Origin: Pseudonocardia sp.
GTDB lineage: Bacteria; Actinomycetota; Actinomycetes; Mycobacteriales; Pseudonocardiaceae
Direction of reading: 5' to 3'
Length of the DNA stretch: 64,000 bases
NCBI GenBank assembly: GCA_025869365.1
Contig: JAOZVV010000005.1
Coordinates: forward strand, 1-64,000
Positions 15,449 through 53,865 of the stretch are shown one piece after another. A program made the translations under genes and the position numbers. Position 1 is the stretch's first letter, and each line of letters begins with the position of its first letter. The notes below the pieces were generated by a model. It worked only from the letters and a program-made list of their open reading frames with translations. It did not search any database and was not told the DNA's origin.

Positions 15449-16309
15449 ATGACAGGACTGGCCGACCACGTGGCCGCCTGGGAACCCGAGCCGATCGAGG
15501 AGTCGGACACCATCGGTGCCCGCCCCTCGACCGCGTTCGCCGCCGTCCTGGACCAGGCGAGCCCGATCGACGCCCCGGACGCGGAGCTCCCCCTCGGCTG
15601 GCACCGCTTCCACTTCCTGGAGGCACCGGCCACCGCCGAGCTCGGGGAGGACGGGCACGTCCGGGAGGGCCACTTCCTGCCGCCGATCCCGAACCGCCGC
15701 CGGATGTTCGCCGGCGGGCGCCTGACGGCGCACGCGCCGATCCGGGTGGGCGACGACATCGTGCGGCGGAGCGAGATCACCTCCGTCGAGCCGAAGACCG
15801 GGCGCAGCGGCGAGATGCTCTTCGTCACCCTGCGCCAGGAGTTCCGGCGAGACGGCGAGCTGGTACTCGTCGAGGAGGAGGACGCGGTCTACCGGCAGCA
15901 GGAGCCGGGTGCTCCGCGGGCCGCGCCCGAGGCACCGCAGGCGGGCCCGGTGCCGGATGCCGCGCCGTGGCGGGCGATGCTCCACCCGGACGAGGCGATG
16001 CTGCTGCGGTTCAGCGCACTGACCTACAACGCGCACCGCATCCACTACGACCTGCCGTACGCGCGCGACGTCGAGGGGTTCCCGGGGCTGCTCGTGCACG
16101 GGCCGCTGCTCGCCCTGCTGCTCCTGGAGCTGCCGCGGCGGTTCACCCCGGACCGCCGGGTCGCGGAGTTCGCGTACCGCCTCAAGGCCCCGTCGTTCGC
16201 GGGCGCCCCGATCGTCGCGGACGGCACGCTCACGGAGTCCGGCGCGGACCTCGCCGCGGGGGTCCCGGACGCGACGCCCGCGATCACGGGCACGATCACC
16301 TACTCCTGA
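15449..16309 (+). CDS. MaoC/HTD2-type acyl-thioester dehydratase (mesaconyl-C4-CoA hydratase-like)
   Basis: Double hot-dog hydratase/dehydratase acting on an acyl-thioester (286 aa). The N-terminal hot-dog half has GWHRFHFLEAP, LPPIPNRRRMFAGGRL and VGDDIVRRSEI. The C-terminal half carries the catalytic segment FSALTYNAHRIHYDLPYA and VHGPLLALLLLELPRR. The overall pattern matches the FAS1-like dehydratase / mesaconyl-CoA hydratase group. The ATG at 15449 has an ACGGAGGA ribosome site. It stands alone, 59 nt after the methyltransferase gene, and its stop is followed after 3 nt by the first CGAGTCG array unit. The substrate is not determinable. Confidence 0.8.
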   Translation: MTGLADHVAAWEPEPIEESDTIGARPSTAFAAVLDQASPIDAPDAELPLGWHRFHFLEAPATAELGEDGHVREGHFLPPIPNRRRMFAGGRLTAHAPIRVGDDIVRRSEITSVEPKTGRSGEMLFVTLRQEFRRDGELVLVEEEDAVYRQQEPGAPRAAPEAPQAGPVPDAAPWRAMLHPDEAMLLRFSALTYNAHRIHYDLPYARDVEGFPGLLVHGPLLALLLLELPRRFTPDRRVAEFAYRLKAPSFAGAPIVADGTLTESGADLAAGVPDATPAITGTITYS

Positions 16310-16312
16310 CCC

Positions 16313-16428
16313 GCGAGTCGCGGTATTTCCGTCACCGAGTCGTGGTGGGGCCCGCTCGGGGCCCGGCTCACGGCGCCGGTGGGAGCACGGAAGTACCGCG
16401 ACTCGGTGGCGGAAATACCGCGACTCGC
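16313..16428. repeat. Inverted pair of CGAGTCG 22-bp arrays (2 + 2 units)
   Basis: Units begin at 16313 and 16335 on the plus strand and at 16428 and 16406 on the minus strand; both pairs have a 22-bp period. The unit begins GCGAGTCG or CCGAGTCG and three of the four continue CGGTATTTCCG or nearly so. The two arms form a long imperfect hairpin around a 28-bp centre and lie between the convergent dehydratase and amine oxidase genes, so they may also stop transcription. The same unit occurs at 51338-51403 and 52274-52339. Confidence 0.85.
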
Positions 16429-16452: not shown

Positions 16453-18399
16453 TCAGTGGCAGTGGTCGCCCTTCGGCTCCGAGGGGGGCAGGTCCAGGCC
16501 GGGGTTGCCGTCGAAGAAGCCGCTGGGCTTGAGCATGAAGCCGATCGTGGACACCGGCATCACCGGCCAGTCCTCCGGGCGGACGATGTGATGGGCGCCC
16601 ATCGTGTACCAGACCACCACGTCCTGACCCTCCAGCGGACGGTCCCCGGACCCGTACACCGGCAGCCCGTCGCTGCGCGGGTTCTGCAGCGGGTAGTCCC
16701 CGGCCGCGAAGCGCTGGGTCTCGTCGTACGCCGTCACCCAGAGCTGGTGGTCCGTGAACCCCGCCCGCGGCGCGAACACCGCGTCCGGTGGGTACATCGG
16801 CGGCACGTTCGCCCCCGGCATCAGGACGTACCCGGTGGGCTCGCCCAGCGCGGAGAGCCTCGTCGGGTTCTCGATCCGCCAGTGCCGCGCCTTCGACGCG
16901 TCGAGGTCCCGCCCGCCGACGGCCTCCGACGTCACGGGCGTCCGCACCACCTCCCACGCGTTCCCGTGCGGGTTCGCCGGCCCGGCCGGGCTCGCCACCG
17001 AGTCCAGCTCGACGACGGTGTTCGGCACCCCGTCGACCGTCATGTCCAGCCGCACGCAGAAGAAGTGCTGGTGGTGCGGCCCGTAGAGCCCCGGCGCGAC
17101 GAGCGTCCCGTGCGCCGGCCTCTCACCGGGCGCGATCGCCGCCGTCGAGATGACGCCCGTCAGCTTGACCTCGTACTCGATCGCGCCGTCCGTCGAGAGG
17201 TACCAGAAGTAGCCGTACTCGTAGTTGCCGACGGTCACGATCGTCGACAGCACGAGCCGCCGCTTGCGCCGCACCTCGACCTTCCCGGTCCGGAAGTCCG
17301 TGTGCTTCCAGGCGATGCCCACGTCCTCCTCGTGCATGCAGACGGCGTTCGGGATGATCACCGGGGCGCCGTCCTGGTCGTTGACGACGCCGTCGAGGTA
17401 CTGGATGTGCCCGACGCAGTCGCAGCCCAGGGTGAGCGGGTTCGCCAGCCAGCCGACGCCGTACTCGCCCTGGTCGAACACGTTCTTGAAGCGGTGCGTC
17501 GGCGCCGGGTCCCCGTAGGGCACGTACATCTCCGCCAGCGACGCGCGGTGCACGATCGGCCGCCCGTCGTAGGCGACCTGGTGCAGCACGAGCCCCTCGC
17601 GCGGGGTGAACCCGATCCGCAGGGACCACTTCTGCCAGCTCACCGCGTGCCCGTCGAGGATGAACGACGGCCCGTTCGGCTGGGTGATCTCCAGCGGCTG
17701 CACGTCGCCGCGGTACCCGTCGAACGCGGGCACGTTGTCCGGCGCGAACTGCCACTCGGCCTCGTAGTTGCCCGGTCTCGGCGGGAACGGGACGACGCCG
17801 TGGTCCGTGACGTCGACGACGACGCGCTCGTCCAGGTCGACGGTCACCACCAGCCCCTCGACGGGCCGGGCGTAGCCGTGCTCGCCGGGCGCGGACCGCA
17901 TCCACGTCAGCGGCCGGCAGATCCGCCGGGCGGCCGGGTCGTCGTCCGGGCCGGTCCAGCTCGAGGCCCACGGGTCGATCATGGCGAGCTCGAAGTCCTC
18001 GACGCCGCGCCGCCGCATCGCCTCCTGCCAGCGCGGGTCGGCCCGGACGATGTCCTCGCAGGCGAAGAACTCCTCGCCCATGATCGGCGGCTGCACCCCC
18101 GGCCGGGCCCTCCAGGCGACGACCTCGCCGGCGGTCAGGGAGACGACGGCCTCGTAGGTGGTCCGGTCGGCCCGCTCGTAGAGGACGATCTCGGCCTCGC
18201 GGGGGAGCGGCGCGTCCCCGTCCGTCCAGCCGGTCACCGCGGCCTTCGACGGCTCGTGCAGGCTGACGAACACGAACCGCGCGGTCTCGGTGAGGCCCTT
18301 CGCCGAGGTCAGCAGGCTGCTGGCGGCGCGGACCTCGTCGGTGGTGAGCGGTTCGAGCGGATGGCCCAGGTGGGTGGGGGTCTCGGACACGGCGGTCAT
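16453..18399 (-). CDS. Copper-containing primary amine oxidase
   Basis: TPQ/Cu amine oxidase (648 aa): converts primary amines to aldehydes with release of NH3 and H2O2. The cofactor motif TVGNYEYG contains the Tyr that becomes topaquinone, YLDGVVND supplies the catalytic Asp region, and the copper ligands are seen in GPHHQHFF and MGAHHIVRPEDWPVMP. N2/N3-type domains precede (VRAASSLLTSAKGL, YEAVVSLTAGEVV). There is no signal peptide, so it is cytoplasmic, as in arthrobacterial enzymes. The ATG at 18399 overlaps the permease stop by 4 nt (ATGA), so amine import and oxidation are coupled. Histamine, tyramine and phenethylamine are all possible substrates. Confidence 0.95.
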   Translation of the reverse strand: MTAVSETPTHLGHPLEPLTTDEVRAASSLLTSAKGLTETARFVFVSLHEPSKAAVTGWTDGDAPLPREAEIVLYERADRTTYEAVVSLTAGEVVAWRARPGVQPPIMGEEFFACEDIVRADPRWQEAMRRRGVEDFELAMIDPWASSWTGPDDDPAARRICRPLTWMRSAPGEHGYARPVEGLVVTVDLDERVVVDVTDHGVVPFPPRPGNYEAEWQFAPDNVPAFDGYRGDVQPLEITQPNGPSFILDGHAVSWQKWSLRIGFTPREGLVLHQVAYDGRPIVHRASLAEMYVPYGDPAPTHRFKNVFDQGEYGVGWLANPLTLGCDCVGHIQYLDGVVNDQDGAPVIIPNAVCMHEEDVGIAWKHTDFRTGKVEVRRKRRLVLSTIVTVGNYEYGYFWYLSTDGAIEYEVKLTGVISTAAIAPGERPAHGTLVAPGLYGPHHQHFFCVRLDMTVDGVPNTVVELDSVASPAGPANPHGNAWEVVRTPVTSEAVGGRDLDASKARHWRIENPTRLSALGEPTGYVLMPGANVPPMYPPDAVFAPRAGFTDHQLWVTAYDETQRFAAGDYPLQNPRSDGLPVYGSGDRPLEGQDVVVWYTMGAHHIVRPEDWPVMPVSTIGFMLKPSGFFDGNPGLDLPPSEPKGDHCH

Positions 18400-25897: not shown

Positions 25898-25919
25898 CTC
25901 GCATGTCCGGGCCGACCGC

Positions 25920-26025
25920 GCGTCATGGCTCCACAACGCGCTCTGACGGCCCCGAAACCCGCGTCATGGCTCCACGACGCGCTCTGACGGCCCCGAAACC
26001 CGCGTCATGGCTCCACGACGCGGGC
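25920..26025. repeat. 41-bp tandem repeat, 2.5 units, between convergent genes
   Basis: Units begin at 25920, 25961 and 26002 (the last truncated). Each starts GCGTCATGGCTCCAC and continues through CTCTGACGGCCCCGAAAC; the first two differ at one base. Each unit can fold through GCGTC/GACGC. It lies between deaD and the L,D-transpeptidase gene, after the deaD terminator. Confidence 0.9.
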
Positions 26026-46376: not shown

Positions 46377-46403
46377 CGGAGCGGATCGGGCAGAGTGCCG
46401 GAC

Positions 46404-47126
46404 ATGGATCAGGTACGTCTCGCCGGCGACGCGGTCGGCGGCTGGCTGCAGCTCCCCGGCCCCGCGACAGCCGAGCTGATGGGCTCCGTCGGGTACGACT
46501 TCGTCTGCGTCGACACCCAGCACGGGCTGATCGGCGACGACGCGCTGCTCCCGATGCTGCAGGCCCTGGCCGCCACCGGGACACCGTCGCTGGTCCGGGT
46601 CTCGCACAACGGCCTCGACGTGATCGGCCGGGCCCTGGACCGGGGCGCGTCCGGGGTGATCGTGCCGCTCGTCGAGTCCGTGGAGCAGGCCGCCGCGGCC
46701 GTCTCGGCGTGCCGGTACCCGCCGCACGGGACCCGCAGCTTCGGCCCGACCCGGGTGTCCTGGTCCGGCCGCGACGTCCTGGCACCCGGGTTGTGCGCGG
46801 TGATGATCGAGACGGCGGCGGGGCTGGACGCGCTCCCGGGGATCCTGCAGGTCGACGGCCTGGACGCGATCTTCGTCGGCCCGTCGGACCTGGCGCTCGG
46901 CACCGGCCGGACCCTCGCGGAGCAGGACACCGACCCGGCCTACGACGAGCTGCTCGGCTCGATCGCGGCCCGGTGCGGCGCGGCGGGTCTGCCGGTCGGC
47001 ATCTACTGCGCCTCCGCGGCCCACGTCCGGCGCTTCCGGGATCTGGGGTTCACGTGGTTCGCGGGCCCCGCCGAGGGGGTGCTGCTCCGCTCCGCCGCCG
47101 CGACGTCCCTCCGCGAGAGCCGCTGA
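46404..47126 (+). CDS. HpcH/HpaI-family aldolase
   Basis: Metal-dependent class II aldolase of 240 aa. It has FVCVDTQHGLIGDDAL with the acid/base His, VPLVESVEQA, GTRSFGPTRV (substrate-binding Arg), MIETAAGLDALPGI (metal-binding Glu) and DAIFVGPSDLALGTG (metal-binding Asp). The family cleaves 4-hydroxy-2-oxo acids to pyruvate plus an aldehyde, or related malyl-type substrates. ATG 46404 is chosen; an in-frame GTG lies 9 nt upstream. As the last gene of the operon it may perform the final carbon-carbon cleavage of the imported acid. Confidence 0.9.
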   Translation: MDQVRLAGDAVGGWLQLPGPATAELMGSVGYDFVCVDTQHGLIGDDALLPMLQALAATGTPSLVRVSHNGLDVIGRALDRGASGVIVPLVESVEQAAAAVSACRYPPHGTRSFGPTRVSWSGRDVLAPGLCAVMIETAAGLDALPGILQVDGLDAIFVGPSDLALGTGRTLAEQDTDPAYDELLGSIAARCGAAGLPVGIYCASAAHVRRFRDLGFTWFAGPAEGVLLRSAAATSLRESR

Positions 47127-47161: not shown

Positions 47162-47359
47162 GCGAGTCGGGGTCTGGGGCCGGGCGAGTCGGGGTCTGGG
47201 GCCGGGCGAGTCGGGCCGTGGAGCCCCGCGAGTCGGGGTCTGGGGCCGGGCGAGTCGCGCCCTACGACCCGGCGAGTCGTGCCCTACGGTCCCGCGAGTC
47301 GCGCCCTGAGGCCGGGCGAGTCGGGCCGTGGAGCCCCGCGAGTCGGGGCTTGGGGCCGG
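47162..47359 (+). repeat. Left CGAGTCG array: nine units at an exact 22-bp period
   Basis: GCGAGTCG begins at 47162, 47184, 47206, 47228, 47250, 47272, 47294, 47316 and 47338 without a single change of spacing. The 14 bases between cores fall into a few types: GGGTCTGGGGCCGG (three exact copies and one variant), GGCCGTGGAGCCCC (two), CGCCCTACGACCCG and relatives. The array lies just after the aldolase gene. CGANTCG is a palindrome with an asymmetric centre, so each unit has a direction; all nine point right. Confidence 0.95.
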
Positions 47360-47695
47360 GTCGGACTTCCGGTGGGGCAGGTCGGGAGCCGAGCCACCCG
47401 TCGATCATGGGTGCTCCGTCACTGTCGTCGGTGATCGACGGCTGAGGCTGGCAGATGGAGATCAACTGGCGCCTCTTGCCCGCAATCGTCGAATCGGCGC
47501 CCGCGCCCTCCGGCGGCCCGAGCACATGCTCGTTGCGATGGTCGCGTCGGCGTTGCCGGCCGCGCACCGAGGGCACCTCCCGGACCGATCACCGGGGTGG
47601 TGATCCGGCCGGCCGCCGCCTCGGCGTAGTGACGACGGTGGTGAGGTGGCGCTCGGATCGATCACGGCAGCTCGTCAGCCCGGGACCTCGCCCCG
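47360..47695. other. Unassigned DNA between the two facing arrays
   Basis: About 336 bp with somewhat different composition from the arrays, including short AT-richer words (GATGGAGATCAACTGG, GCACATGCTCGTTGCGATGG). Short open frames exist on both strands (for example one starting GTG at 47328), but none matches a family I recognise and none has a convincing ribosome site. It may be a decayed gene or the core of an element. Confidence 0.35.
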
Positions 47696-47871
47696 TGGGC
47701 TGCAACGCCCGACTCGCGCGGCCCCAGCTCCCGACTCGCGGGGCCAGAGCTCCCGACTCGCGCGGCCCCAGCTCCCGACTCGCGGGGCCCCAGACCCCGA
47801 CTCGCGGGGCCCCAGACCCCGACTCGCCCGGCCTCAGATCGCGACTCGCGGGGTCGTAGGGCGCGACTCGC
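47696..47871 (-). repeat. Right CGAGTCG array: eight units, 22-bp period, opposite orientation
   Basis: CGACTCGC begins at 47710, 47732, 47754, 47776, 47798, 47820, 47842 and 47864, again exactly 22 bp apart. Read on the minus strand, the outermost units use the CGCCCTACGACCCC, CGATCTGAGGCCGG and GGGTCTGGGGCCCC linkers also found in the left array; the inner ones use GGAGCTGGGGCCGC. It ends 28 bp from the stop of the convergent methyltransferase gene. Confidence 0.95.
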
Positions 47872-47898: not shown

Positions 47899-48690
47899 TC
47901 AGGCTCGGGCGAGGAGCTCGCCGTGCGGGATCGTGAACCAGCCCTCCGGGCTCGCGGCCCACTGCGACCAGGCCGCCGAGATGTCCGCCAGGTCCCCGCG
48001 GGTCGCGAGGCCCCGGGTGACTGCCTGCTCCGCGATCGAGGAGGACACGATCCGCTCCGCCCACGAGCCGCCCCACCACTGCCGGGTCTCCGGTGTCGCG
48101 TAGCACCAGATCGAGGCGGACGGCGTGACCTCGGTGAAGCCGGCCGACCGGGCCCAGCCGAGGAGGCGCCGGCCCGCGTCGGGCTCCGCGTCGTTGCCCC
48201 GCGCGACGGCCCGGTACAGCGCGAGCCAGGCGTCGAGACGCTCGTCGTGGGGGTACCAGGTGAACCCGGCGTAGTCCGCGTCCCGCACCGCGACGACCCC
48301 GCCCGGCCTGGTGACGCGCCGCATCTCCCGCAGGGCGGCAACCGGGTCGGAGAGGTGCTGCAGGACCTGGTGGGCGTGCACCACGTCGTAGCGGTCGGCC
48401 GGGTCGTCGAGGGCGTAGACGTCCCCGACGGCGAACTCGACGGTGGTCCCGCTCCCCGCGGCGCGGGCCTCGACCAGCGGCGCCTCCACGACGTCGATCC
48501 CGCGGACCCGTCCGGGGGCGACCCGCGCCGCCAGGTCGTGCGTGATCGTGCCGGGCCCGCACCCGACGTCGAGCAGGTCGAGGCCGGGGCGGAGCAGCGG
48601 GAGCAGGTACGCCGCGGAGTTCTCGGCGGTCCGGTTCCGGTGCGAGCGCAGCACGCTGTCGTGGTGACCGTGGGTGTAGACGTCGTTCAT
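47899..48690 (-). CDS. Class I SAM-dependent methyltransferase (UbiE/menaquinone-like)
   Basis: Methyltransferase of 263 aa. After NDVYTHGHHDSVLRSHRNRT comes motif I LLDVGCGPGTITHDLAAR, then VRGIDVVEAPLVEAR, YDVVHAHQVLQHLSDPVAAL and VTRPGGVVAVRDADYAGF, all typical of the Methyltransf_11/25 group. The C-terminal part (TPETRQWWGGSWAERIV) is shared with many actinobacterial homologues of unknown acceptor. The ATG at 48690 is chosen; ATG 48699 would add three residues. It is divergent from pepE by 33 nt. Confidence 0.85.
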   Translation of the reverse strand: MNDVYTHGHHDSVLRSHRNRTAENSAAYLLPLLRPGLDLLDVGCGPGTITHDLAARVAPGRVRGIDVVEAPLVEARAAGSGTTVEFAVGDVYALDDPADRYDVVHAHQVLQHLSDPVAALREMRRVTRPGGVVAVRDADYAGFTWYPHDERLDAWLALYRAVARGNDAEPDAGRRLLGWARSAGFTEVTPSASIWCYATPETRQWWGGSWAERIVSSSIAEQAVTRGLATRGDLADISAAWSQWAASPEGWFTIPHGELLARA

Positions 48691-48723
48691 GGAGCCCATT
48701 CTCGATCAGGAGAGGATGGCCGG

Positions 48724-51337: not shown

Positions 51338-51403
51338 GCGAGTCGCGGTATTTCCGTCACCGAGTCGCGGTACTCCCGTCCGCGAGTCGGGCTCTGCGGG
51401 CTG
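51338..51403 (+). repeat. CGAGTCG array, three units, left of the SDR gene
   Basis: Units start at 51338, 51360 and 51382 (22-bp period): the first two are nearly identical to those at 16313 (GCGAGTCGCGGTATTTCCG, CCGAGTCGCGGTACTCCCG), the third reads GCGAGTCGGGCTCTGCGGG. They face the array at 52274-52339 across the SDR gene. Confidence 0.9.
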
Positions 51404-51419
51404 CGCGGTCCCGACGTGG

Positions 51420-52163
51420 TCAGCGGGGGAGGCGGCGCCAGATCGCGCGGGGGAGGTGCCGCATCACCGCGAAAGCGGGCCGCAGCACACCGGGGACCCA
51501 GACCTCGCCGCGCCCGGCGCGCAGGGCCTTCACGGTGGCGTCCGCGACCTGCTCGGGGGTGCTGGAGAACGGCGCCGGGGACATGCCCTCGGTCATCCGG
51601 CCGATCACGAAACCGGGCCTGACCAGCAGCAGGCGCACTCCGGAGCCGTGCAGCGCGTCCGCGAGCCCGGAGGCGAACCCGTCCAGACCGGCTTTCGCGC
51701 TGCCGTAGACGTAGTTCGCGCGGCGCACCCGGACCCCGGCGACGGACGAGAAGACGATCATCGTGCCGGTCCCCTGCGCCCTGAGCACCCGCGCGAGCTC
51801 CGTCAGGACCTGGACGTGCGCGACGTAGTCCGTGTGCACGATCCGCACGGCGTGCTCGGCGTCCTGCTCGGCCCGGGGCTGGTCCCCGAGCAGCCCGAAC
51901 GCGACGACCACGACGTCGATCGCCCCGTGCCGGGCCACCACCTCGTCGAGGAGGGGGCGGTGGGAGGCGAGGTCGTCCGCGTCGAACTCGAGACGCTCGA
52001 CGGTCTCCGCCCCCGCCTCGCGCAGGACCTTCTCCTCCGCGTCGAGGTCGGCGCTGCGCCGGGCGGCGAGGACGACGGTCCGCGCCTCCCGGCCGGCGAG
52101 CCGCTCCGCCACCGCGATCCCGATCTCGCTCCGCCCGCCGAGCACCAGCACCGTTCCGCCCAT
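51420..52163 (-). CDS. Short-chain dehydrogenase (DprE2-like)
   Basis: NAD(P)-dependent short-chain dehydrogenase of 247 aa. The N-terminal VLVLGGRSEIGIAVAERLAG, with GGRSEIG as the cofactor loop, is characteristic of DprE2, the 2-ketoreductase that makes decaprenylphosphoryl arabinose for the cell wall. The active site YVYGSAKAG has the Tyr-x-x-x-Lys pair, with the Ser in VFSSVAGVRVRRANY. The ATG is at 52163. No dprE1 adjoins it, so it may be a paralogue with another substrate. It is flanked on both sides by facing CGAGTCG arrays. Confidence 0.85.
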   Translation of the reverse strand: MGGTVLVLGGRSEIGIAVAERLAGREARTVVLAARRSADLDAEEKVLREAGAETVERLEFDADDLASHRPLLDEVVARHGAIDVVVVAFGLLGDQPRAEQDAEHAVRIVHTDYVAHVQVLTELARVLRAQGTGTMIVFSSVAGVRVRRANYVYGSAKAGLDGFASGLADALHGSGVRLLLVRPGFVIGRMTEGMSPAPFSSTPEQVADATVKALRAGRGEVWVPGVLRPAFAVMRHLPRAIWRRLPR

Positions 52164-52273
52164 GGCCCGAGTCTCCCAGCGGCCGGGGGAGATCACGACG
52201 CGGGAGTGTGGGAGCGACCTCAGCGCATGCCGATCACGAATCGGGTGCGCTCAGGTCGCTCTCACGTCGGGGT

Positions 52274-52339
52274 GCTCCACGCGACCGCGACTCGCGGACG
52301 GGAATACCGCGACTCGGTGACGGGAATACCGCGACTCGC
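52274..52339 (-). repeat. CGAGTCG array, three units, right of the SDR gene
   Basis: CGACTCG cores at 52288, 52310 and 52332, period 22 bp, oriented towards the left array. Read on the minus strand the units start GCGAGTCGCGGTATTCCCG, CCGAGTCGCGGTATTCCCG and GCGAGTCGCGGTCGCG. The array ends 8 bp before the stop of the acyl-CoA ligase gene. Confidence 0.9.
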
Positions 52340-52347
52340 GGGGTCGG

Positions 52348-53865
52348 TCAGGCGGTGAACCGTTCGCGGAGGACGTGCTTCTGGATCTTGCCCACGGCGG
52401 TGCGGGGGAACTCCGTCACGAAGTGGACCGCCTTCGGCGTGTTGTAGCCCGCCAACCGCGTGCGGACGAAGGTGGTCAGCTCCGCCGCGAGGGCGTCCGA
52501 GGGCTCGCCCGAGGGCACGACGATCGCCACGACCTGCTCCTCGTACACCGGGTCCGGCAGCCCGATCACCGCGGCGTCCGCCACCCCCGGGTGCTGGGAG
52601 AGGCAGTCCTCGACCTCCTTCGACCACACGTTCTGGCCGCCGGAGCGGATCATGTCCTTCTTCCGGTCGACGATCGTCAGGAAGCCGTCCGAGTCCGCGA
52701 CGGCGACGTCCCCGGTGTGCAGCCAGTCCCCGGCCAGCGCGGCCTTCGACGCCTCGTCGTTGCGCCAGTAGCCGCTCATCCGCGGCCCCCGGACGCAGAT
52801 CTCACCGGGGGAGCCGGGCTGTACGGGAGCGCCGTCGTCGTCCAGCAGGGCGACCTCGACGCCGGGCATCGCCCGCCCGATCGAGCCCCACTTCGCGAAG
52901 ACGTCGTCCGGCGGGCACCAGGTGACGAACGGGCCGCCTTCGGTGAGCCCGTAGGTGTGCCCCATCGAGATCTTCCCCTCGCGGGCGCCGAACGCGTCCG
53001 CGGTGCGGTCCATGATTCCGCTGGGGTCGTAGGCGCCGTAGTACAGCAGCCGGACCGACGAGGTGTCCGTCGCCTCGAAGGAGGGGTGCGTGATGAGCGA
53101 GTGCAGCATCGTCGGCACGCCCAGGACCACCGAGACGCGGTGGCGGGGGAGCAGTTCGAGCACGACCGACGCGTCGAACTCCCGCAGGAGGACCACCTTC
53201 CCGCCCATGAGCAGGAAGGGCTTCATGTGGTCCCAGTTCCCGACGTGGAAGGGCGGGAAGTAGTTCATGAAGACGTCGCGGTCGGTCACCCTCAGGGTGG
53301 CGGCCATCGCGAGGCCGTCGTCGACGGTACGGCGGTGGGAGAGCATGGCGCCCTTGGGCTTCCCGGTGGTCCCCGAGGTGTAGAGGATCATGTGCGGGTC
53401 CCGCTCGTCGACGGTCACCGCCGGCGCCGTCGACCCGCCCGCGGAGAACTCGTCCCACTCCGCGCGGTCCCCCTCCGGGCCCGGGATGCGGATCACCGGG
53501 AGGTCCGGCGACGCCGCGCGGGCCTCCGCCGACACCTCGTCGTAGTCCTTCTCGACGAAGAACAGCGACGGCTCGGCGTCGCCGATCGTGTAGGCGTGCT
53601 CGGCGCCGCGGTGCCAGAAGTTCAGCGGCACGAGGATGGCGCCGAGCGACGCCGTCGCGAAGTAGAGCTGGACGTACTCCAGGCTGTTCTTCGCCAGTAC
53701 CGCAACCCGGTCCCCGTAGCCGATCCCGCGGGCGGTCAGCGCGCCGGCCGTCTCCTCGATCAGGTCCTGCAGGTCGGCGTAGGAGACGTCCCGGGACCCG
53801 ACGACCAGTGCCGTCGAGGAACCCCGGGAGCGGGCGTTGTTCCGGATGATGTCCGAGACGATCAT
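52348..53865 (-). CDS. Acyl-CoA ligase (AMP-binding, fatty-acid/aryl-CoA synthetase type)
   Basis: ATP-dependent acyl-CoA synthetase of 505 aa (ANL superfamily). It contains the AMP motif LYTSGTTGKPKGAMLSHR, FPPFHVGNWDHMKPFL, MGHTYGLTEGGP, DWLHTGDVAVADSDGFLTIV, DRKKDMIRSGGQNVW and the C-terminal FPRTAVGKIQKHVLRE with the catalytic Lys. The ATG at 53865 has GGGAAGGGA upstream. It is the last gene of a minus-strand operon with an amidohydrolase, an enoyl-CoA hydratase and an ActP-type symporter, so it activates an acid taken up or released by that pathway. Confidence 0.93.
   Translation of the reverse strand: MIVSDIIRNNARSRGSSTALVVGSRDVSYADLQDLIEETAGALTARGIGYGDRVAVLAKNSLEYVQLYFATASLGAILVPLNFWHRGAEHAYTIGDAEPSLFFVEKDYDEVSAEARAASPDLPVIRIPGPEGDRAEWDEFSAGGSTAPAVTVDERDPHMILYTSGTTGKPKGAMLSHRRTVDDGLAMAATLRVTDRDVFMNYFPPFHVGNWDHMKPFLLMGGKVVLLREFDASVVLELLPRHRVSVVLGVPTMLHSLITHPSFEATDTSSVRLLYYGAYDPSGIMDRTADAFGAREGKISMGHTYGLTEGGPFVTWCPPDDVFAKWGSIGRAMPGVEVALLDDDGAPVQPGSPGEICVRGPRMSGYWRNDEASKAALAGDWLHTGDVAVADSDGFLTIVDRKKDMIRSGGQNVWSKEVEDCLSQHPGVADAAVIGLPDPVYEEQVVAIVVPSGEPSDALAAELTTFVRTRLAGYNTPKAVHFVTEFPRTAVGKIQKHVLRERFTA

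Follow-up and report, generated by a model that had tools for sequence, protein, structure and literature searches.

Phased arrays of the polar word CGAGTCG at gene 3' ends in Pseudonocardia: a possible new class of REP-like repeats

What keeps two opposed arrays of a short DNA word in strict register between two convergent genes, and what could such arrays do there? The question is raised by a locus of the window, by which we mean the whole stretch of 64,000 nucleotides analysed here (Pseudonocardia sp., assembly GCA_025869365.1, contig JAOZVV010000005.1). Array 1 (47162..47359, forward strand) consists of nine 22-bp units with the core GCGAGTCG (first 47162-47169, last 47338-47345), and array 2 (47696..47871, reverse strand) of eight 22-bp units with the same core (first 47710-47717, last 47864-47871). 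The step between neighbouring CGAGTCG units is exactly 22 bp throughout both arrays, so that the unit coordinates bear out the nine right-pointing and eight left-pointing units described in the earlier note, as does the locus for its remark that both arrays share linker types in a differing order.

Facing arrays and their distribution

Both arrays sit in the 772-bp gap of a convergent gene pair formed by an HpcH/HpaI aldolase-family gene on the left (46395..47126, forward strand) and a methyltransferase-family gene on the right (47899..48699, reverse strand). Array 1 begins 36 bp 3' of the stop codon of the left gene and array 2 starts at a distance of 28 bp from the right gene's end, each in the sense orientation for its own gene. 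The two opposed arrays are thus present as first described, but they are better seen as two gene 3' ends that each carry a sense-oriented array. The spacer between them (47360..47695) holds no gene according to the gene finder, the 134-aa ORF spanning it had no Pfam match, and an Rfam search of the window returned no match. The 8-mer GCGAGTCG occurs 29 times in the window, whereas 100 dinucleotide shuffles averaged 15.5 occurrences and never exceeded 26. An assembly artefact is an unlikely origin, since the same arrays are also found in assemblies that comprise only a few contigs (two for G298, three for G351).

The window contains two further facing pairs that had escaped the earlier note. 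In the first, a two-unit array of linker family 1 (16314..16342, forward strand) lies 5 bp 3' of the stop codon of gene 15449-16309 and faces a family-1-like two-unit array (16399..16427, reverse strand) located 3' of a copper amine oxidase gene (16453-18399). In the second, a three-unit array (51339..51389, forward strand), antisense to an SDR gene (51420-52163) and 31 bp beyond the end of that gene, faces another three-unit array (52288..52338, reverse strand) in sense orientation 10 bp 3' of the stop codon of an AMP-binding gene (52348-53865). The SDR gene enclosed by this second pair (window 51390-52287) has the opposite orientation in the relative G351, as if the arrays had perhaps been used as inverted repeats; a larger rearrangement is also possible.

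The window arrays are part of a genome-wide system. In the 5.27-Mb source genome (G000), the pattern CGAGTCG-N15-CGAGTCG gave 145 + 126 = 271 pairs at 22 bp, with no match for the reversed-pattern control. When the gap was left free between 8 and 30 bp, 285 pairs were obtained in total (control 7), so that about 271 of 285 lie at exactly 22 bp, part of the remainder being due to chance. A lack of genome-wide enrichment at 22 bp had been set beforehand as a refuting outcome, and this test did not refute the observation. Among 62 genomes of the genus Pseudonocardia, at least 10 pairs were found in 36, at least one in 43 and none in 19, the seven genomes with 1-8 pairs possibly reflecting chance; summed over the genus, 5,952 pairs stand against 21 control matches. 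Of 298 genomes drawn from the order, none but the source genome exceeded four pairs; two further members of the genus were among them, with 4 and 0 pairs. Among 394 genomes of the class, a three-unit match occurred in six, spanning 2 of 138 genera: 145 in the source genome and 65 (G617), 11 (G665), 1, 1 and 1 in five genomes of one other genus, the single match of G474 being an 11-bp repeat.

A scan of named genomes yielded at least 117 stretches. The matches listed included many Pseudonocardia, several Nocardioides, Actinophytocola gossypii, Amycolatopsis acididurans and one Terrabacter, as well as six non-actinobacterial records resembling short-period or isolated repeats. In this respect the initial interpretation needs widening, as the system reaches beyond the Pseudonocardiales (Nocardioides). 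The 80 titled stretches formed the basis for the counts of linker consensus, folding, neighbour genes, 3' ends, core versus linker, core decay and back-to-back spacing, and the 37 others served as a held-out set. Six non-actinobacterial stretches (L113, L117, L129, L148, L164 and L175) were excluded from the linker, folding, neighbour, 3'-end, core/linker and spacing counts, and all of the at least 117 stretches were used as BLAST targets for spacer comparison.

Core, linkers and spacing

Conservation of the core was scored on the middle one of three cores, wherever the outer two are exact and separated by 44 bp. This middle core differs at 0.1% of bases in the source genome (131 windows of comparison) and at 0% in G351 (79), whereas the linkers of adjacent units within these genomes differ at 28%. 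The contrast recurs in the remaining species pooled (core 1.8%, linker 20%; 170 windows) and in the 37 held-out loci (core 0.5%, linker 20.5%; 83 windows). Tandem copying alone would affect both parts equally, and a near-invariant core next to free linkers therefore indicates that the core itself is held, in support of the selection on core and spacing proposed earlier. The centre base of the middle units is G in 131 of 131 cases in the source genome, 79 of 79 in G351 and 166 of 170 in other species, so that the units are polar, as had been suggested. Linker consensus differs across most of the 30 groups, all detected by the same core, and close relatives such as the source genome and G351 have linker types in common. 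Core decay reaches 5-10% per base in P. kujensis, P. spinosispora and Amycolatopsis (25, 4 and 9 windows). CRISPR repeats measure 24-48 bp and are separated by unrelated spacers, whereas here the constant part amounts to 7-8 bp and linkers are alike within species, which agrees with the initial view that these arrays are not CRISPR.

A step of 21-22 bp corresponds to two helical turns, 22 bp being 2.1 turns of B-DNA. Since 22 bp slightly exceeds two turns, a strip of nine units winds slowly round the helix. The proposal that all cores lie on nearly the same helix face consequently stands for neighbouring units, which are nearly aligned, but not across nine units, which drift by about 270 degrees. 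Genome G332 harbors the same system with mainly a 21-bp period (14 of 24 steps in 260 kb, stretches L272-L284), the other steps measuring 42, 22, 18 and 9 bp (two each), 26 bp (one) and 29 bp (one). In G324 and G355, close pairs far outnumber 22-bp pairs, and seven G355 stretches gave a single pair, at 21 bp.

A second spacing was found between back-to-back units, measured from a reverse-strand core to the following forward-strand core with at least one of them in an array. Of 39 nearest distances, 12 measure 30 or 31 bp and 17 fall within 26-33 bp. The 12 cases at 30-31 bp, a distance of about three helical turns, come from the source genome, G351, P. nigra, Pseudonocardia sp. CNS-139 and a Pseudonocardiales MAG, and CNS-004 has a spacing of 32 bp. 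The 17 centres of 26-33 bp are unrelated in sequence (identity 0.47, against 0.45 after shuffling), one pair from the source genome and G351 being the same site (L046 and L309, 31 and 32 bp). The nine held-out distances include 31, 31, 31, 32 and 33 bp, the others being 17, 20, 22 and 41 bp. Face-to-face distances are broad (25 cases, and 10 more in the held-out loci).

The geometry was considered compatible with protein binding from the outset, and the 21-bp lineage, the contrast between core and linker, the 30-31-bp back-to-back spacing over unrelated centres and the held-out loci all support this view. Judged from sequence, the exact core and the 22/21-bp and 30-31-bp spacings point to a putative recognition of duplex DNA. 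The reading that we favour, with a probability of roughly one half, is that the arrays are host-chromosomal, REP/BIME-like extragenic repeats, in which strips of the exact polar word on duplex DNA, spaced by two turns, would be occupied head-to-tail by a putative sequence-specific protein. The functional word would be the exact polar 7-mer CGAGTCG, each array would form a strip of sites on double-stranded DNA two helical turns apart, and the candidate protein would fill the strip in head-to-tail order, presumably by cooperative binding. Spacing alone is no proof of a protein that serves the host, because REP dimers, as described in PMC3733652, can also hold their spacer length while the sequence differs.

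Several known systems bear comparison. Iterons and Tn7 ends are direct repeats of about 22 bp bound by one protein at single loci; in contrast, CGAGTCG arrays are found at dozens of gene ends per genome. TTF-I or Sal-box arrays of eukaryotic rDNA are polar protein-binding sites repeated after the genes of one family, where they end transcription, and, being eukaryotic, they offer an analogy of working only.

Position relative to genes

The 3'-end counts are based on the calls of a purpose-built codon-usage gene finder, not on an annotation. In the source genome, arrays occupy 24 of 58 convergent, 24 of 207 tandem and 2 of 81 divergent gaps (Fisher p = 1.2e-4 for divergent gaps), rates that are relative and not genome-wide, as the regions were picked for containing arrays. 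Divergent gaps with arrays number 0 of 38 in G351 and 0 of 60 in G617, where the stretches covered include only four arrays. Over three sets, the 185 arrays are distributed among convergent gaps (79), tandem gaps in sense (44) or antisense (23) orientation, divergent gaps (6), contig ends (29) and gene interiors (4). Unpaired arrays in tandem gaps are more often sense (25) than antisense (8, p = 0.005). In 35 of 123 cases, no more than 8 bp separate a sense stop codon from the first core, the sequence from stop codon to core often reading TGA-CCCG-CGAGTCG; the last core comes equally close to an antisense stop in 6 of 102. This sense bias is partial: present in the source genome and in the other Pseudonocardia set, it was not seen in G351 (12 sense and 11 antisense; unpaired 5 and 3), which has a core within 8 bp of the stop in 4 of 24 sense and 2 of 23 antisense cases, nor in tandem gaps outside Pseudonocardia (5 sense, 5 antisense).

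The location straight after stop codons and the sense bias are also what an RNA-level element of the 3'-UTR would produce, in which sense CGAGUCG repeats, folded or bound by protein, would end or stabilise the mRNA. Indeed, the sense strand of the arrays folds slightly better than shuffles (mean z of -1.22, against -0.65 for the antisense strand; 140 arrays, 40 shuffles each), and close facing pairs can form long hairpins. However, a z of about -1.2 is a weak signal, on which RNA folding was rejected as the cause, and the core palindrome seldom extends, two more bases pairing in 9 of 47 distinct flanks of the source genome and 10 of 40 of G351. Moreover, nothing about RNA obviously accounts for exact spacings of 22 bp and 30-31 bp, and back-to-back pairs leave one array antisense to any transcript, all of which makes an RNA element improbable.

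If the strips are bound by a protein, their most likely job would be to end or insulate transcription at gene ends, above all between convergent genes, perhaps as a polar block or as a topological anchor. We place this job first on account of the location of the strips. A plain roadblock meets a difficulty, in that an array placed 5 bp after a stop codon would risk halting RNA polymerase within the gene. Hairpins accompany 2 of 24 convergent gaps with arrays and 11 of 34 without in the source genome (p = 0.053), and 6 of 24 and 29 of 177 tandem gaps, respectively; in G351, the corresponding counts are 4 of 7 and 7 of 20 for convergent gaps and 9 of 16 and 16 of 77 for tandem gaps. That arrays replace hairpins as a general rule was rejected, the convergent gaps of the source genome being only suggestive, and both G351 and the tandem gaps of the source genome showing the reverse trend. 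The hairpin statistics thus give no backing, as a general rule, to a role in ending transcription.

More tentatively, a dedicated protein polymerising head-to-tail on two-turn-phased CGAGTCG strips may form, in several actinobacterial genera, a genome-wide, polar and protein-dependent system of transcription-unit boundaries. It would be a bacterial counterpart of protein-bound terminator arrays, in which strips would lengthen, shorten and spread without loss of the exact word. Protein-bound strips would imply a new genome-wide DNA-binding factor and a hairpin-free marking of gene ends. No candidate for the binding protein was found among the listed clusters of predicted array neighbours. With an exact core, free linkers and two distinct spacings, the system lends itself to direct tests, whichever reading holds.

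Gene ends are also where a core kept exact by a genome-wide drive, like DNA uptake words or the methylase-linked HIP1, could be enriched, and a short, exact, palindrome-like word that is sporadic across species would fit such a drive. A single-word drive predicts scatter, whereas copies are concentrated in phased arrays and few occur in the array-free gaps of the source genome (0 in 5.4 kb of convergent, 4 in 18 kb of divergent and 7 in 30 kb of tandem gaps), and we consider this explanation very improbable. With cyanobacterial HIP1 (GCGATCGC), the likeness lies in a short, exact word of palindrome type that is uneven between species; HIP1 is not known to occur in phased arrays, and the centre base of CGAGTCG is odd and polar.

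Turnover, mobility and relation to REP repeats

Aligned stretches of the source genome and G351 are 77-92% identical across most regions and share nine array sites by position, eight of which differ in unit number, for example 2 and 5 units after gene 15449-16309 and 4+5 and 7+3 on contig C57. After the G351 gene matching 15449-16309, the 5-unit array has another linker type and faces 6 units, and the right-hand neighbour differs. At the window site (47162-47871), neither G351 nor G342 has arrays; the gap is shorter than 100 bp and contains a perfect hairpin (17 bp in G351, 21 bp in G342), plausibly a two-way terminator. Conversely, a G351 site with 9+4 units corresponds to a gap of the source genome without any array of two or more units. 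A second 760-bp module of the source genome, on contig C46 (L041), has a spacer related to that of the window (alignment score 29.5; 200 shuffles, -15.9 +- 5.8), and both modules are absent from G351, where the unaligned gap is about 50 bp instead of about 760 bp. The family-1 linker type is present in 67 copies in the source genome, 5 in G342 and none in the other 60 genomes. Shared sites with changed units, together with this linker burst, indicate that array places are fairly stable while their content turns over genome-wide.

Such turnover brings in the strongest rival, which has much of its evidence in common with the favoured explanation: the arrays would be selfish, REPIN-like repeats devoid of host function, some enzyme other than Y1 reading the core together with its 22- and 31-bp spacings, and copying units into harmless gene ends. 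The family-1 burst, the two modules with related spacers missing in G351, the sporadic distribution, the fixed spacer length of REP dimers noted above and the decayed cores of P. kujensis, P. spinosispora and Amycolatopsis, as if the driver had been lost, all fit this scenario. However, the nine sites common to the source genome and G351 and the sense bias in tandem gaps of the source genome and the other Pseudonocardia set argue against it. The Y1/RAYT transposase PF01797 is encoded by only 5 of the 62 genus genomes, the source genome not among them, and by three of the 36 array-rich ones (at least 10 pairs; G301, G304 and G338); as its presence is unrelated to arrays, it was rejected as their driver. 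Target duplications are not readable, the intergenic flanks being too diverged between the source genome and G351. A BLAST search of phages and plasmids with one array found no match, although variable linkers make this a weak test, and a pattern scan of viral sequences returned one contig, carrying a perfect repeat. On balance, a selfish population appears rather unlikely; if real, it would be a REP-like population spreading without a Y1 enzyme.

Repeats of 22 bp in inverted sets could also be the ends of a transposon, each repeat serving as a 22-bp site for the transposase as in Tn7, and the 51.3-52.3 kb pair does enclose a gene inverted relative to G351. Tn7-like ends bound a transposase operon or cargo, whereas no gene family is prominent near the arrays and the window spacer has no called gene. 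Across 1,152 predicted neighbours, no family stood out as recurrent: each of the 25 clusters listed covers at most three species, and the two clusters that in two genera each come to within 400 bp of an array are both metabolic-looking. The 16 spacers of the source genome (56-1418 bp) are mostly unrelated, BLAST giving two chance-sized overlaps; a spacer acting as common mobile element was rejected, the window and L041 alone being related (a single pair aligned against shuffles). As arrays also frequently start directly after stop codons, transposon ends are disfavoured and are, in our estimate, the least probable of the alternatives.

Returning to host-chromosomal strips bound by a putative protein, their closest counterparts by behaviour are the REP repeats, which PMC3733652 describes as extragenic, located near gene 3' ends in convergent or tandem rather than divergent gaps, and arranged in inverted pairs, clusters and species-specific subfamilies. 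CGAGTCG arrays resemble REP, BIME and REPIN elements in that they are dispersed outside genes at 3' ends, avoid divergent gaps and form inverted pairs, clusters and species-specific types. On the other hand, a REP unit is a stem-loop of 20-40 bp, whereas the CGAGTCG unit, with its 7-bp core and odd centre, has none. Its units are arranged head-to-tail in a fixed 22/21-bp phase, the exact polar 7-mer is common to several genera, and most carriers lack a Y1 transposase. REP units bear a GTAG or CGTC tag at one end; GTAG families are associated with a Y1 (RAYT) transposase and CGTC families are said to lack one (PMC3733652). The CGTC tag occurs in 21 of 159 linkers of the source genome, 5 of 6 of Actinophytocola and 0-2 per other group, and the GTAG tag in five overall (one in the source genome, four in P. 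kujensis). Since stem-loop and Y1 features are missing, we do not file the arrays as REP despite their REP/BIME-like behaviour, and a new REP-like class is the best reading. The main text of PMC3733652 contains no word starting with actino- and names neither Pseudonocardia nor Nocardioides, and no earlier description of CGAGTCG arrays was found among the matches listed from the open-access literature (PMC).

Two other repeats were observed. The hairpin GTGCGCAGCCTCG-N6-CGAGGCTGCGCAC of the G351 window site recurs at another G351 site (L250 near 13360, L303 8790-8830) and is perhaps a dispersed hairpin repeat in its own right. In the window, positions 25919-26022 hold a 41-bp tandem repeat of 2.5 copies with 98% matched bases.
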